64,000 bases of DNA, from the IMG/VR virus record IMGVR_UViG_3300042562_002450, positions 124,001-188,000 of that record; one strand, 5' to 3'. Shown here in pieces: positions 46,432 through 58,866 of the stretch (the stretch's first letter is position 1; every line of letters starts with the position of its first letter). The notes under the pieces are model-generated. The model had not been told where the DNA came from. It saw nothing but the letters and a program-made list of their open reading frames with translations, and did not search any database. This DNA comes from a virus. The translations under genes and the position numbers were made by a program.

Positions 46432-48435
46432 CTAGATAATTGATCTAGATATTCTTCTGGAGTTTCTAGCTGTTTTAATTGAATCTCTTGCATTCCTTCT
46501 TATGTCACGTCTGTCATCATTATTGAAAGCTTCTTTCGAATAAATACGACCTGAGTTTGTTCCATAAATCGGATTATTTAAAAATGATACTCCGTTCCTT
46601 ACACTATTACTAGTAATATCTGAACGAGTTTCTGGTCTTTGTATTGATCTTCCACCAATAGATGGCTCTGCTATATTCCCAGAACCTTGCCCAAAAGATC
46701 CGCTAACAGCAACACTACTTGAGAAATGCTGTTTAGTGTACTCACCTAGTTCAATTTCTAAGCCAACTACTGCTAACATAAAAGCATCAAGATCATGATC
46801 TCCAGCTGGGCCAGCTTGATATATTGCCATCCCAGAAGCATTAACTCTTGCTATGCTGTAACCATGCAATTGCTTAAGTAGGACTTCATCTTCAGATGAA
46901 AAGTTAATCATTCCTCTTTCAAAAAACCGAACATTACTTTCAATGATAAATGGTTTCATATGCATTTTCTGAGGTAATCCAGTTACTGGATCAAATACAT
47001 CTAACTTAGAACTTGAGTTTATACCTTTAGTGTTTATGAAATTCATATCTAAATGAGCGAATTGATCTTTTCTCATTTGGGCATCTTGACCGATCTTACG
47101 AAGGAGCTCAATCTGAGTTGCACCATAACCAGTGTCGACATAGATATATGTACAGTTCCAAATACGATTCATTTCTAATGCTTTCTGAACTGCAGCAGTC
47201 TGAACCCATCCTGCTTTTTGAACAGTGGCAGATGCCACACATCTAATACGCCCATCACCTGGACTATATTCTACTATTCGGATTTTTGTCCCATTTTCCG
47301 CATCATTCCAGTCGATACCCATTGAATATATATAGTCACGATTATAAACCATATCTTCATACTTATAAGAAACCATAGCAGTTTCCAACAAGCCAAACTG
47401 AAAAACTGATGTAGCTGCTTCTCCAAACTCTGCAAGAATTTCATGTTGCCATCCAATTTCTGTACGATAGGATGCTCGAAGTTCTGCTTCCATCTTTGGA
47501 CCCCAAGAAGGATTAGACAAAGAAGAATAAAAGAACTCTTTAAAATCCATACGTTGAGTACAAAAATCATAAAAGTATTCTCTACGACCTGATGGCGTAG
47601 AAGCTGCAATCATCTCTACATCATTATGCTCCATTAAGAGAGCGATAACAGTATCGATATCTTCCTGCTTTAAATAGTCCATCTCATCCATCATAATAAA
47701 ATCAGCAGGCTGACCTCGGACAGAAGATGCACCAGATGAACCAGCAGAAAATCCAGAAATAATCATTCCAGACTTTAATGTAACTTTGTAATAAGGTGTA
47801 GCAACAAATGATTCAACCTCAGAGGCAAGCTCTGGATTCATATCAAACATACGCTTCATACGAGCAAAGAAATCTTTTACCTGTGATAAATAAGGAGCAA
47901 GGAATAGAATAGATCCAAACCCTTTAACCCATTCATTACGGTGAGCATCCCATCTTTGTTCTTTTGGGGAATTATTAAATAAACGAAATAATGCCCAGAT
48001 CAACATAACTTCAGACTTACCTAATCGACGACCACAACGTAAAACTTTGCGCTTACTGGAACATCTTAAGATATTAGATTGATACTCAATCTGCTTATTC
48101 GATTTACGGGGTCTCCAACCAAAGTACTTTTCAGCCCAAGTAACCGCATCGTAAACTGCAGTTAAATCATATAATTCGCCGTCAGAAATCTTCTCTCCAG
48201 ACTCTTTCTCAATTCTTTCTAATAGATAATCTTGTCGAGGGATATATTTATTCTCATCAGGGATACCTTTGCAATCAATAATGAAGTCGCCCTTTTTATA
48301 TAAAGGCAAACCAGTTTCATTATTAACGGGGCCATCTATAATGGCTACCCTACTATTAACACAATCAAGACAAAATTGGGTAAGCTTCTTACCTTCTTTT
48401 GCCAGCGTGACTGAGGGATGCGGGACAAAACTCAT
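46432..48435 (-). CDS. terL: Terminase large subunit
   Basis: 667 aa, DNA-packaging motor with ATPase and nuclease domains. The Walker A-like motif is CGRRLGKS (residues 134-141), Walker B is FIMMDE (246-251) and the coupling motif is AASTPSGR (277-284). The RNase-H-like nuclease has SMGIDW (D375), YVDTGYG (D434) and GDHDLDAF (D548/D550), so both activities look intact. The C-terminus is Ser/Arg-rich. It is flanked by an HNH nuclease gene upstream, a common pairing, and by a terminator downstream. A promoter-like box lies about 30-54 bases upstream of the ATG. Confidence 0.95.
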   Translation of the reverse strand: MSFVPHPSVTLAKEGKKLTQFCLDCVNSRVAIIDGPVNNETGLPLYKKGDFIIDCKGIPDENKYIPRQDYLLERIEKESGEKISDGELYDLTAVYDAVTWAEKYFGWRPRKSNKQIEYQSNILRCSSKRKVLRCGRRLGKSEVMLIWALFRLFNNSPKEQRWDAHRNEWVKGFGSILFLAPYLSQVKDFFARMKRMFDMNPELASEVESFVATPYYKVTLKSGMIISGFSAGSSGASSVRGQPADFIMMDEMDYLKQEDIDTVIALLMEHNDVEMIAASTPSGRREYFYDFCTQRMDFKEFFYSSLSNPSWGPKMEAELRASYRTEIGWQHEILAEFGEAATSVFQFGLLETAMVSYKYEDMVYNRDYIYSMGIDWNDAENGTKIRIVEYSPGDGRIRCVASATVQKAGWVQTAAVQKALEMNRIWNCTYIYVDTGYGATQIELLRKIGQDAQMRKDQFAHLDMNFINTKGINSSSKLDVFDPVTGLPQKMHMKPFIIESNVRFFERGMINFSSEDEVLLKQLHGYSIARVNASGMAIYQAGPAGDHDLDAFMLAVVGLEIELGEYTKQHFSSSVAVSGSFGQGSGNIAEPSIGGRSIQRPETRSDITSNSVRNGVSFLNNPIYGTNSGRIYSKEAFNNDDRRDIRRNARDSIKTARNSRRISRSII

Positions 48436-51247: not shown

Positions 51248-51767
51248 TTTGACAGAAGATCAAGTATTTACCTTTTTTAGGGGTATTTAAAATATGTTTA
51301 TTTTAGTCAAAAACGGTTGCGAATCGACTGTTTCTGTTCGAAAGCTGAAAGAAACTGAAGAGAACTGAAAAGAAAAATGAAATTACGAATCAAAAAAATG
51401 AAAAAATGAAAAAAAATAGAGTTCTCCCTAAAGGGAGAATTAAGATATTTTATAAGATATTGGAATAATTAAGGTCTGGGAAAAAAGACCTAGGTAAGCG
51501 CTAATTGCAACATGCGACTGCAGTTACCCTAAATGGGTAAAGATTTGGCTGAGTATGCTTGCGACTGCATGACTCTCCGCGCCGATGACACCCCCCCCGT
51601 AAATGAAAAATAAAAAAACAAAAATTGGGAATTCGCAATTTGCAAAATAAAAAATAAAAAAGCGTTAAGGGGGTGGGGGTCAAAAAAAACTAAAAAAAAT
51701 AAAATGGGAATTCGAAAAAGCGAAAATGTTTTCGTGTAGTCCTAGATTGATTGATCAAATAGATCTC

Positions 51768-51791
51768 ACCTCTAACAATTTCGTTCGAGGT
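51768..51791 (+). repeat. Intercistronic hairpin, AATTTC loop (leader of small-gene block)
   Basis: ACCTCTAAC-AATTTC-GTTCGAGGT forms a 9-bp stem with one mismatch. It lies 28 bases before the first plus-strand ATG, inside the leader, and is the first member of the C(AATNTC)G hairpin family. Confidence 0.55.
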
Positions 51792-51819
51792 ACCGGGGTC
51801 TATATATAAAGGAATTTTT

Positions 51820-52038: not shown

Positions 52039-52064
52039 ACCTATGTGCAATTTCGCATATAGGT
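52039..52064 (+). repeat. Intercistronic hairpin, AATTTC loop
   Basis: A 10-bp stem ACCTATGTGC/GCATATAGGT (one G.T pair) with the loop AATTTC. It sits 22 bases before the next ATG, after the stop of the previous gene. There is no following T-run, so it is an RNA processing or stability element rather than a terminator. Confidence 0.65.
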
Positions 52065-52277: not shown

Positions 52278-52302
52278 ACCTATATACATATCGTATATAG
52301 GT
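52278..52302 (+). repeat. Intercistronic hairpin, ATATC loop
   Basis: Perfect 10-bp stem ACCTATATAC/GTATATAGGT with the loop ATATC, 34 bases before the next start codon. It shares position, stem ends (ACCTAT...ATAGGT) and loop style with the hairpin at 52039. Confidence 0.65.
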
Positions 52303-52335
52303 ACACATCCACTACATATAACAATGAGGTATCTA

Positions 52336-52539
52336 ATGACTACTATCAATTACTCTATCACTGTATCTGATGCGCTATCTACACCGCATGCCATTGCCTC
52401 TATACATAAGACTAATGGGCACTACCTACACCTAGTACTAGACAATGGTAAGGACATTACTATTGATGAGTACGATATACCAACACATGACCTTATCCCT
52501 ACTGAAGATATGTACATAGTACGTATCGCTAAGGGGTAA
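52336..52539 (+). CDS. Small protein, paralogue of the gene at 55104
   Basis: 67 aa from the ATG at 52336 (GAGG 6 bases upstream). Starts MTTINYSITVSDALSTPHAI. The protein at 55104-55322 begins MTTLNYSITVLDSCHHQVKI, and the two stay alignable over their length (for example LVLDNGKDITIDEYD against TLENGLFLCVSDSY), so they are duplicates. Predicted all-beta. Function is unknown. Confidence 0.65.
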   Translation: MTTINYSITVSDALSTPHAIASIHKTNGHYLHLVLDNGKDITIDEYDIPTHDLIPTEDMYIVRIAKG

Positions 52540-52554
52540 TACATACAAACATAA

Positions 52555-52576
52555 ATACATACAATTTCGTATGTAT
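52555..52576 (+). repeat. Intercistronic hairpin, AATTTC loop
   Basis: Perfect 8-bp stem ATACATAC/GTATGTAT with the loop AATTTC, located 20 bases before the next ATG. The loop is identical to that at 52049-52054 although the stem differs completely, which supports selection on the loop. Confidence 0.65.
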
Positions 52577-52596
52577 ATATAACCTTAGGAGGTTAT

Positions 52597-52932: not shown

Positions 52933-53118
52933 ATGAAACGTGATGCAACTGTTCATTCCCAAGCTCGCAAGGCTTGGCGTGAACACAAGCGGTTACGTCG
53001 TGATAAAGCTAAGTCCTATTCAAGTGAACGCTTGATAGGCTGGCGAAATCGCGAATGGGTTAAGGCTCAGCGTAAGTACAATGAAGTACTTGCCTGGTCT
53101 GACAACCAAGCCGCGTAG
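52933..53118 (+). CDS. Small, highly basic protein
   Basis: 61 aa from ATG 52933, chosen because AAAAGGAGCACACC precedes it; an upstream ATG at 52888 lacks a site. It is strongly basic and Trp-containing (SQARKAWREHKRLRRDKAKS), suggestive of nucleic-acid or ribosome binding. Its stop codon lies inside a hairpin. No family is recognised. Confidence 0.6.
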   Translation: MKRDATVHSQARKAWREHKRLRRDKAKSYSSERLIGWRNREWVKAQRKYNEVLAWSDNQAA

Positions 53119-53286
53119 TACCTAACGGTACTGCAACATATCCTGAAACGATAGGGATATGAAATATACCTCCCACTGTAATGGTGGGATGTATATAAAA
53201 CTTATATAGGTATTACTTATATTGGTTCTATATACATTGTGTATAAACTACATATTTTATGTAGTTATTTTAGATAAAGGAATTTT
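53115..53286 (+). other. Intercistronic region with several hairpins
   Basis: Contains GTAGTACC-TAAC-GGTACTGC (53115-53134, 8 bp, overlapping the preceding stop), ATATCC/GGATAT (53138-53160), ATATAC-CT-CCCAC/GTGGG-AT-GTATAT (53164-53196) and AACTACATA/TATGTAGTT near 53246-53266. None has a strong T-run. The region looks like a structured RNA segment just upstream of the ribozyme cluster; no complete hammerhead core is present here. Confidence 0.5.
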
Positions 53287-53538
53287 GTGAAAATAACAAT
53301 TAACATGTTTTGTGATCGTCTTCTTGGAGACAACAAAATGGAAGTGCTAATGGTAGCAATTCATGCACGTAAGCTTGATCCCTCTATTAGATTAGAGACA
53401 GTTCAGGCTATATATGATGTCAAGTTTACACTTGATTCATGCATCATGTTTTCTACTGGTAGTGAAGAAGATAAGCAGATTATCGCTAGATTAACTAGTG
53501 AGTATGAGTCTCTACTATCACAAGGCATGATTCTTTAG
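53287..53538 (+). CDS. Small protein, GTG start
   Basis: 83 aa starting at GTG 53287 after AAAGGAATTTT. Starts MKITINMFCDRLLGDNKMEV; helical, acidic at the C-terminus. Its stop is 14 bases before the first hammerhead ribozyme. Unknown function. Confidence 0.6.
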   Translation: MKITINMFCDRLLGDNKMEVLMVAIHARKLDPSIRLETVQAIYDVKFTLDSCIMFSTGSEEDKQIIARLTSEYESLLSQGMIL

Positions 53539-53552
53539 TAGTAAACGATTAA

Positions 53553-53615
53553 GGCCGAAACGCAGTTACTAAGTAACGTAAGTCGTATATGTGTAATGCA
53601 CATACTGATGAGGCT
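53553..53615 (+). ncRNA. Type II hammerhead ribozyme 1
   Basis: Read 5' to 3': GGCC (stem II 3' strand), GAAA core, stem III with the hairpin GTTAC-TAA-GTAAC, the cleavage triplet GTA (cut after 53587), stem I TATGTG-TAATG-CACATA, CTGATGA core (53605-53611), then GGCT closing stem II. All invariant core bases are present. The order with stem II open defines type II. It lies between the genes ending at 53538 and starting at 53648. Confidence 0.88.
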
Positions 53616-53647
53616 GTATCTAATAATCAAATATCCTAGGAGGATAT

Positions 53648-53809
53648 ATGAATGACATAGATAAATGTTTTGAATTGATGGAGGCTTACATTCGAGCAGA
53701 TGAACGTAATCATAATGGCGAATATTATGAGGTATCTCTTAGTGATAAGGAAATCGCTATTGCTGCTGATCTTGATCTCGCTAACTGGATCGAAGACCTA
53801 GTTGCTTAA
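53648..53809 (+). CDS. Small acidic protein between ribozymes 1 and 2
   Basis: 53 aa: starts MNDIDKCFELMEAYIRADER; helical and acidic (ADLDLANWIEDLVA at the end). The TAGGAGGATAT ribosome binding site precedes the ATG. It is bounded on both sides by hammerhead ribozymes, so self-cleavage would release it as a monocistronic message. Unknown function. Confidence 0.65.
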   Translation: MNDIDKCFELMEAYIRADERNHNGEYYEVSLSDKEIAIAADLDLANWIEDLVA

Positions 53810-53810
53810 A

Positions 53811-53873
53811 AGCCGAAACGTCTTATCTACTGATAGATAAGAGTCTATGTGTAATGCACATACTGATGAGGCT
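53811..53873 (+). ncRNA. Type II hammerhead ribozyme 2
   Basis: AGCC, GAAA, stem III as a perfect 9-bp hairpin (TCTTATCTA-CTGA-TAGATAAGA) with one bulged G next to the core, GTC cleavage triplet (cut after 53845), stem I TATGTG-TAATG-CACATA, CTGATGA (53863-53869), GGCT. The best-formed of the three. It starts 2 bases after the stop of the 53-aa gene. Confidence 0.92.
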
Positions 53874-53900
53874 AATCTTATTAGGTAATTGGAGGTTCTT

Positions 53901-54110
53901 TTGAAAAAGCACACTTCTCCTTCTGATCTCTATGAGATCAAAATGTCTGCTCTGCACGGGGCAGCCATGGACTTGATTGAGTTGGAGTTAAATCAGCCCA
54001 TTTACTGGGTTGATTCTGCTCTTGCTTCCCTTGCTCTTGACCTTGCCACTGAGGAGTTAGCTAATGCTGAACTTCTTTTGGATATCTGGTTGAGTACAAC
54101 AGAAAACTAA
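53901..54110 (+). CDS. Small protein between ribozymes 2 and 3, TTG start
   Basis: 69 aa from TTG 53901, which is 5 bases after GGAGG; an upstream TTG at 53889 overlaps that site. Starts MKKHTSPSDLYEIKMSALHG; acidic and Leu-rich helices dominate (LASLALDLATEELANAELLL). Flanked by ribozymes on both sides. Function unknown. Confidence 0.6.
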   Translation: MKKHTSPSDLYEIKMSALHGAAMDLIELELNQPIYWVDSALASLALDLATEELANAELLLDIWLSTTEN

Positions 54111-54111
54111 A

Positions 54112-54177
54112 AGCCGAAACGCTTTCACTTAACAGTGATGTAAGCCGTCTATGTGTATTACACATACTGATGAGGCT
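54112..54177 (+). ncRNA. Type II hammerhead ribozyme 3
   Basis: AGCC, GAAA, stem III (GCTT ... TCACT-TAAC-AGTGA ... AAGC, with small internal loops), GTC triplet (cut after 54149), stem I TATGTG-TATTA-CACATA, CTGATGA (54067+100 numbering: 54167-54173), GGCT. The core is intact. It starts 2 bases after the stop of the 69-aa gene and ends 57 bases before the next ATG. Confidence 0.88.
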
Positions 54178-54234
54178 GTTCTTAATTAATCCCTAAACAT
54201 TCACTTATACATATGAACTAACTAAGGAGTCTTT

Positions 54235-54525
54235 ATGTTAGTAAACATTCGTCGTATATCGAATCATGCAACTGAACGTCTTGTAGAGACATATAGAGTT
54301 GCCCCTAAGATTCAAAAGATTATTGCTTTAGTTGTTTCACAAGCAGCTAAAAATGTAATCGAGTATGGCCGTGATAATGCTGTATTCGTTATTAACCCTA
54401 ATGAAGGGGCTTATGTGGTTAAAGGTGACACTGTTGTTACTTTTATTCATAAGTCTCGTATTGGTGAGTTCGGTAACTGCCAACGTGCTTATGATCATTA
54501 TAAATCTACTGGTAAAGCAGCTTAA
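54235..54525 (+). CDS. Small basic protein after ribozyme 3
   Basis: 96 aa, starting MLVNIRRISNHATERLVETY, with AAGGAGTCTTT upstream. An N-terminal basic helix region is followed by beta strands (VFVINPNEGAYVVKGDTVVT) and a basic end. The first gene after the ribozyme cluster. No family is recognised. Confidence 0.65.
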   Translation: MLVNIRRISNHATERLVETYRVAPKIQKIIALVVSQAAKNVIEYGRDNAVFVINPNEGAYVVKGDTVVTFIHKSRIGEFGNCQRAYDHYKSTGKAA

Positions 54526-55103: not shown

Positions 55104-55322
55104 ATGACAACATTAAACTACAGCATCACTGTCCTCGATTCTTGTCATCATCAAGTAAAAATCGTAGCAGTTAAAAGAAAGAAAGGTTGTGAGACTGAAT
55201 ACACATTAGAGAATGGATTATTTCTATGTGTATCTGATTCATACATAACCAGTGGTGAAGAATTAATCCCAGTATCTGTTGGTAATAATGAACTGTATCT
55301 ACATGTATCTAAGGTTGCTTAG
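55104..55322 (+). CDS. Small beta-rich protein, paralogue of the gene at 52336
   Basis: 72 aa, starting MTTLNYSITVLDSCHHQVKI. It shares the MTT(I/L)NYSITV-D start and overall strand pattern with the 67-aa protein encoded at 52336. The ribosome binding site is weak (AAAGGGTAATCAA), and it probably relies on coupling to the preceding gene. Unknown function. Confidence 0.65.
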   Translation: MTTLNYSITVLDSCHHQVKIVAVKRKKGCETEYTLENGLFLCVSDSYITSGEELIPVSVGNNELYLHVSKVA

Positions 55323-55332
55323 TATCTCACTA

Positions 55333-55360
55333 TAGAGCTTAACAATATCGTTAGGTTCTA
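55333..55360 (+). repeat. GAGC-type intercistronic hairpin, AATATC loop
   Basis: An 11-bp stem TAGAGCTTAAC/GTTAGGTTCTA (two G.T pairs) with the loop AATATC, 18 bases before the next start. Member of the hairpin family that recurs before several genes in this block. Confidence 0.65.
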
Positions 55361-55599: not shown

Positions 55600-55625
55600 A
55601 GGGCCTAGTAATATAGCTAGGCTCT
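55600..55625 (+). repeat. GGCC-type intercistronic hairpin
   Basis: A 9-bp stem AGGGCCTAG/CTAGGCTCT with the loop TAATATAG, 19 bases before the next ATG. Related in position and 3' strand (GGCTCT) to the GAGC hairpin family. Confidence 0.6.
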
Positions 55626-57872: not shown

Positions 57873-57931
57873 TTAGAGCTCAGCAATAATGCTGGGCTCC
57901 ATAAACAAAAGGTATTGTCACTCATGAAAAA
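57873..57931 (+). repeat. 59-bp perfect repeat, copy 1 (hairpin plus start region)
   Basis: Identical over 59 bases to 58153-58211. It contains the 9-bp hairpin GAGCTCAGC-AATAAT-GCTGGGCTC (57876+, stem 57876-57884/57891-57899), the ribosome binding site AAAAGG and the start codon with the first codons of the downstream gene. Confidence 0.9.
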
Positions 57932-58152: not shown

Positions 58153-58211
58153 TTAGAGCTCAGCAATAATGCTGGGCTCCATAAACAAAAGGTATTGTCA
58201 CTCATGAAAAA
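58153..58211 (+). repeat. 59-bp perfect repeat, copy 2
   Basis: Second copy of the hairpin/ribosome-binding-site/start module (see 57873-57931), 280 bases downstream. The downstream coding sequences differ from codon 4 onward, so the translation-initiation cassette was duplicated rather than the gene. Confidence 0.9.
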
Positions 58212-58532: not shown

Positions 58533-58841
58533 ATGAATATGTCAGAAAAAGATTTATGCATTATTTTACCACTACTATGCAATGAGATTGCTAACAACTT
58601 AAATGGCTTATTCTACAATGACGACTTTGATGATATGCAAAAGAGAGAGGATTTCGAAAACAAGCTAAGTGTAGCATTTAAGATAATGGATAATTCCAAC
58701 CCTACTGAAGAGTTTAAATCTTGGCTTAATGGTGTATCTGAAAGGTATCAGACAGAAAAGAACGAACACGATAGAGAGGTTCGATATTTTGAAAGAATAG
58801 CAAAATTAGAAAAAGAACTTAATAAAAAAACAAATGACTAA
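58533..58841 (+). CDS. Small helical acidic protein
   Basis: 102 aa, starting MNMSEKDLCIILPLLCNEIA. Predominantly helical and charged, ending in a coiled-coil-like segment (RIAKLEKELNKKTND). The leader is TAAGGAGTAACT. Its last base overlaps the next hairpin. Unknown function. Confidence 0.65.
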   Translation: MNMSEKDLCIILPLLCNEIANNLNGLFYNDDFDDMQKREDFENKLSVAFKIMDNSNPTEEFKSWLNGVSERYQTEKNEHDREVRYFERIAKLEKELNKKTND

Positions 58842-58866
58842 GAGCTCAGCAATATCGTTGGGCTCT
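58841..58866 (+). repeat. GAGC-type intercistronic hairpin, AATATC loop
   Basis: A 10-bp stem AGAGCTCAGC/GTTGGGCTCT (two G.T pairs) with the loop AATATC, 19 bases before the next ATG. The 5' strand matches the 59-bp repeats (GAGCTCAGC), while the 3' strand and loop vary. Confidence 0.65.

Follow-up and report, generated by a model that had tools for sequence, protein, structure and literature searches.

Why would a phage set three hammerhead ribozymes one after another among its small genes? The question is raised by a window of 64,000 nt, the whole stretch of DNA analyzed here, which covers positions 124,001 to 188,000 of the IMG/VR record IMGVR_UViG_3300042562_002450 (198,626 bases). The record is AT-rich, and its TerL gene (46432-48435, minus strand; PHROG match) reaches identities of only 27-33%, to Moorella phage MTATph1, Acinetobacter phage ME3 and Bacillus phage KLEB27-3; the record is thus assigned to a large tailed phage (about 200 kb) that has no close kin in the collections searched. 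Close relatives of the phage or of its small genes were sought in sequence collections, and none was found. A series of small genes with Shine-Dalgarno sequences begins at about 51.8 kb on the plus strand, and the three ribozymes lie within it.

The hammerheads occupy 53553-53615 (copy 1), 53811-53873 (copy 2) and 54112-54177 (copy 3), all on the plus strand and exactly where the initial annotation had placed them. The order of elements is the same in each, namely a stem II strand, GAAA, a closed stem III, UH, a closed stem I, CTGATGA and a stem II strand; loops close stems I and III and stem II is open, which is the arrangement of type II. The intact GAAA and CTGATGA cores and the identical TATGTG/CACATA stem I that had been claimed are present in all three copies. 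Perreault et al. 2011 define the hammerhead by C3, U4, G5, A6, N7, G8, A9, G12, A13, A14, the A15.1-U16.1 pair and H17, with core-adjacent mispairs barred (PMC3088659). All three copies carry this core and the pairs that flank it (C11.1-G10.1, A15.1-U16.1 and C15.2-G16.2), together with a stem II of 4 bp. Cleavage is predicted after 53587 in copy 1, where the triplet is GUA (CGUA followed by UAUGUG), and after 53845 and 54149 in copies 2 and 3, where it is GUC; these are the sites proposed at first, and they agree with N1.1 at 53588, 53846 and 54150. These bases and pairings confirm that the phage-like record has an array of three type II hammerheads, all complete, and the copies are probably paralogous compact type II hammerheads at consecutive junctions of a small-gene operon.

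The genes at these junctions are short and share the plus strand with the ribozymes. An 83-aa gene with a GTG start (53287-53538) lies 5' of copy 1; it terminates in three in-frame stops in a row, TAG TAG TAA (53536-53544). The sole ORF of the interval between copies 1 and 2 is a 53-aa gene (53648-53809), and a 69-aa gene (53901-54110) lies between copies 2 and 3. Both had been listed as ORFs, and both make plausible genes, with AGGAGG upstream of ATG 53648 and GGAGG upstream of TTG 53901. The array is followed by a 96-aa gene (54235-54525), whose ATG is preceded by AAGGAG. There is no family match for the first three genes and none above threshold for the fourth, and a relative of the 69-aa gene was sought in viral_contigs without success. 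Three same-strand copies and two intervals with a single ORF each make this a clustered arrangement. No convincing paralogy was seen among the array genes; clear kinship exists only between the small genes 52324-52539 and 55104-55322 (36% identity over 56 aa, E 3e-8), which flank the array on either side. From 53287 to 54525, no promoter- or terminator-like site was seen on the plus strand, in a search that phage promoters of other types would escape; this is in line with a single transcript. Directly 5' of the 83-aa gene, the gap 53112-53286 is strongly structured, with several hairpins in succession (folding z-score -6.15), and Rfam gives no match for it.

Each ribozyme was said to begin close to a stop codon and to end shortly before the next start, and both statements hold: copies 2 and 3 start 1 nt past the stops and copy 1 starts 14 nt past the first of its three, and the distances from ribozyme end to the next start are 32, 27 and 57 nt. 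In viral contigs, 44 of 55 type II hammerheads that one search pattern finds between co-directional genes start within 15 nt of the upstream stop, as do 74 of 89 in a second set obtained with two further patterns. We also used a test free of gene calls, in which a stop triplet within 8 nt had to close a frame open for about 35 codons; copies with similar flanks were removed, and bins of the same width further upstream served as the control. Among the matches listed, such a stop is found in 69% of the type II hammerheads (n=339), against about 9% in the control, and in 37% of type I (n=104) and 11% of type III (n=19). Type II differs from type I (Fisher, p = 5e-9) and from type III (p = 4e-7) in this comparison, in which the search patterns, and perhaps the phage groups, differ between types and the type III sample is small. 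The stop adjacency of type II persists in AT-rich, middle and GC-rich contigs, and in compact (80%) as well as long (61%) forms. The next Shine-Dalgarno start lies at a median of 22-28 nt, with little difference between the types. Since type II differs from the other two in stop adjacency but not in start distance, intergenic packing is unlikely to be the sole cause; differing phage groups could contribute. In viral contigs, type II hammerheads typically start right behind the upstream stop, and do so more often than types I and III.

We propose the following mechanism. If the small genes are co-transcribed, as we infer, each ribozyme would cut itself within the transcript, between the stem III hairpin and the stem I hairpin. 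The upstream message would then end in the stem III hairpin with a 2',3'-cyclic phosphate, 36-49 nt past the stop codon, and the downstream message would carry the stem I hairpin at its very 5' end, with a 5'-OH, 55-85 nt ahead of the start codon. The products would be mRNAs of 258 and 304 nt, each with one gene and structured ends, and their formation would not need a host nuclease. Both new ends would bear a hairpin because loops close stems I and III in type II. Indeed, only this topology puts a hairpin at both sides of the cut, as type I places one on the 3' side only and type III on the 5' side only. Bacterial mRNA decay involves the 5'-end-dependent RNase E and 3' exonucleases, and structured ends may protect the phage mRNA; the cuts may thus bear on message stability or expression. 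Each interval holds one gene, a ribozyme start abutting the stop and space for a Shine-Dalgarno site. Thus, in our judgment, the three hammerheads are likely to cut the small-gene message into single-gene units with a hairpin at each new end.

The same cuts could instead shut off or limit the small genes, provided that the pieces with 5'-OH and cyclic-phosphate ends decay faster than the whole message. Cleavage would part each gene from the promoter-proximal end, and what phage hammerheads achieve biologically still lacks proof (PMC3088659). However, every downstream gene retains its own Shine-Dalgarno sequence 3' of the cut, a hairpin would cap both new ends and all cuts fall outside the genes; down-regulation therefore has, in our view, a modest chance of being right, well behind the processing of the message into single-gene units.

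A considerably smaller probability attaches to the idea that the near-identical stem I and core blocks are boundaries for homologous swaps of gene cassettes, with cleavage being incidental. The array does form a repeat family of 53 nt, with 68-83% identity, between unrelated small genes. Yet stem III still pairs although its sequence and length vary, and no core base is lost; both points suggest selection on the RNA; the stems of other arrays vary too, with pairing kept. With regard to stem III itself, the initial annotation was right that it differs between copies and pairs, but copies 1 and 3 do not form one simple helix: an outer 3-bp helix (ACG/CGU) is followed by an asymmetric internal loop and a hairpin. 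The covariation support drawn from this stem holds in that pairing is kept, but only three copies stand behind it within the window. Covariation counts on the training alignment of the covariance model described below are partly by construction, because its sequences were picked by pairing.

Slightly less probable again is a role in making circular or spliced RNA, in which adjacent cuts release unit-length RNAs whose ends are then joined, as happens in viroids and retrozymes. The array would yield defined units (258 and 304 nt) whose 5'-OH and cyclic-phosphate ends could be ligated; these units are, however, coding genes with ribosome-binding sites, and Perreault et al. sought circular or spliced products of phage arrays and found none (PMC3088659).

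The motifs themselves were examined with models and shuffles. A covariance model (R1), built from 40 viral hammerheads of other contigs and containing no window sequence, scores copies 1, 2 and 3 at 46.5, 51.3 and 48.6 bits (E 2.4e-13, 5.2e-15 and 4.6e-14) and detects nothing beyond them in the window or in the whole 198,626-base record. Pattern searches of the whole record for type I/III and type II orders likewise found no hammerhead besides the three. In 200 dinucleotide shuffles of the window, searched on both strands for the type II structure, the strict search gave zero matches and the loose search 15 in total (0.075 per shuffled window), against the three real ones within 625 bases. The check by covariance model that had been suggested gives a divided answer: R1 finds all three copies, but in Rfam 15 no type II match to them appears at the gathering threshold or at E up to 10, and none of the three reaches the threshold of RF02276 (Hammerhead_II). 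A weak Rfam type III alignment at 53838-53880 (E 2.8) was rejected as a misreading of copy 2. The Rfam miss reflects a limit of model coverage, because six of the nine compact copies in one other viral contig (L016) are overlooked as well; most compact copies elsewhere are also missed. Standard annotation thus under-counts compact, AT-rich hammerheads.

In folding predictions, the hammerhead is the minimum-energy structure of copies 1 and 2, and the folding energy of copy 1 is no better than that of shuffles (z -0.18). For copy 3, a rival predicted fold is 3.3 kcal/mol more stable; only about 1% of 411 viral copies show such a gap. This copy may accordingly be a slower ribozyme, or the order in which its parts are transcribed may decide how it folds. 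When the flanking context is included, stem II is predicted with low probability in all three, in a prediction that leaves out tertiary contacts. That the motifs are products of chance or decay without activity, as one might argue from the silence of Rfam 15 on type II up to E 10, the folding of copy 1 and the four of 18 consensus hammerheads that Perreault et al. 2011 found inactive in vitro (PMC3088659), is the least probable reading of all, given the intact core bases in all three copies and a Rfam miss explained by model coverage; chance origin is ruled out by the absence of strict shuffle matches together with R1 E values down to 5e-15.

By their bases, the copies are placed in a compact subclass with a 4-bp stem II (GGCC/GGCU or AGCC/GGCU), a 6-bp stem I and a UNANG-like loop of 5 nt, which reads UAAUG, UAAUG and UAUUA in copies 1, 2 and 3. 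Among compact viral copies, 56 of 65 have GGCC/GGCC or AGCC/GGCU, with the inner GCC/GGC preset by the search pattern, and most loops are U-N-A-N-G-like. In type II hammerheads, loop I commonly, though not obligatorily, forms a pseudoknot with the 3' tail. In long-loop type II, at least four pairs with the copy's own tail are possible in 82% of 237 copies, against 29% with swapped tails; in compact type II (n=188), pseudoknot pairing is not above that with swapped tails (7% vs 7%). In the array, four Watson-Crick pairs between loop I and the 3' tail are possible in copies 2 and 3 and two in copy 1. The type II consensus of 2011 includes the loop I pseudoknot (PMC3088659). RF02276 shares its core and open-stem-II topology with our copies; however, that model finds copies in other contigs and not these, which belong to a compact class that shows no sign of the published pseudoknot. 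The stem I sequence of the array was sought in viral_contigs and genome_contigs and was not found elsewhere.

Nine other gaps or leaders of the small-gene region carry a plain hairpin of about 26 nt with an AAUWUC-like loop, all on the plus strand and none of them a ribozyme. The loop is AAUUUC at 52039-52064, with further copies at 51767-51792, 52278-52302 and 52553-52578. It is AAUAUC at 55334-55359, with further copies at 55600-55625, 57875-57900 and 58155-58180, and at 58841-58866, where the hairpin overlaps the stop codon of a gene that ends at 58841. Several of these hairpins are positioned shortly past a stop codon. A model made from eight of them gave no convincing others in the 198-kb record, so the family is confined to the small-gene region. 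A candidate promoter motif, TATATAGGTACACAT, was discarded; its frequency is not significantly above chance, and it is an arm of this hairpin. The segments 57873-57931 and 58153-58211 are a perfect 59-nt direct repeat, in which two neighboring small genes have a junction hairpin, their ribosome-binding site and their first codons.

The hammerheads fill three consecutive gaps that lack an AAUWUC-like hairpin, which suggests that ribozymes and hairpins may occupy one slot, that of a structured end after each gene. A more far-reaching view, which we offer tentatively and would not yet favor, is that type II hammerheads are dedicated makers of message ends, placed at stops because in this type alone a hairpin abuts the cut from either side. 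The second hairpin family would then serve the same purpose in the same slots, and the compact UNANG-loop form would work through some contact between stems I and II that is not the known pseudoknot.

How does this array relate to systems already described? The initial interpretation stands for the type, the core, the coordinates and a likely role in mRNA processing as the best reading, but the novelty it implied for the serial arrangement does not, as clustered phage hammerheads flanking single genes are already published (PMC3088659). Perreault et al. 2011 described clustered prophage hammerheads around single genes and proposed single-gene mRNA processing; three of their tandem arrays cleave in vitro, and one triple array does so in E. 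coli (PMC3088659). de la Pena et al. 2017 likewise reported small non-conserved ORFs flanked by clustered motifs. As in the earlier arrays, among them the triple array around ardA in Agrobacterium tumefaciens, several same-strand hammerheads flank single genes or short blocks of phage origin and the same role is proposed; cleavage has been demonstrated for those arrays, whereas the present one is known from sequence. It differs in its AT-rich phage of about 200 kb, in genes without a family match and in having compact type II copies throughout. The hammerhead of Halovirus HF1/HF2 (HHphage) is also a phage hammerhead and precedes an early gene, and its cleavage site is no more than 3 nt from a transcript 5' end that has been mapped (PMC3088659); unlike our array between small genes, it is one copy with a variant core.

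The array is thus a further example of the known clustered phage hammerheads. For the stop-codon rule and the way it varies with type, for the compact class with no sign of the pseudoknot and for the coexisting hairpins, we found no earlier description in the literature, mainly its openly accessible part. For the role of phage hammerheads, a question standing since 2011, this array offers a clean test bed: its three ribozymes are nearly identical, the genes between them are tiny, and the same operon has another set of hairpins at other sites. The stop-codon rule, far stronger in type II, turns the general notion that these ribozymes flank genes into a specific and testable idea on how message ends are formed.

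Similar arrays are common elsewhere in IMG/VR, where 28 of the 307 locus-strands listed have at least three type II copies and the largest number is nine (nine in L016, seven in L159 and five in L028). Like ours, they run on one strand, have a common stem I form and mostly hold a single ORF per interval (90 of 125); unlike ours, they are mostly GC-richer, and their intervals have a median of 525 nt, against 258 and 304 nt here. Type I hammerheads are abundant in viral contigs too, with at least 126 distinct ones against at least 18 of type III. In L016, L159, L025, L028 and L339, five to nine type II hammerheads follow one another in series, usually with a single ORF between them.
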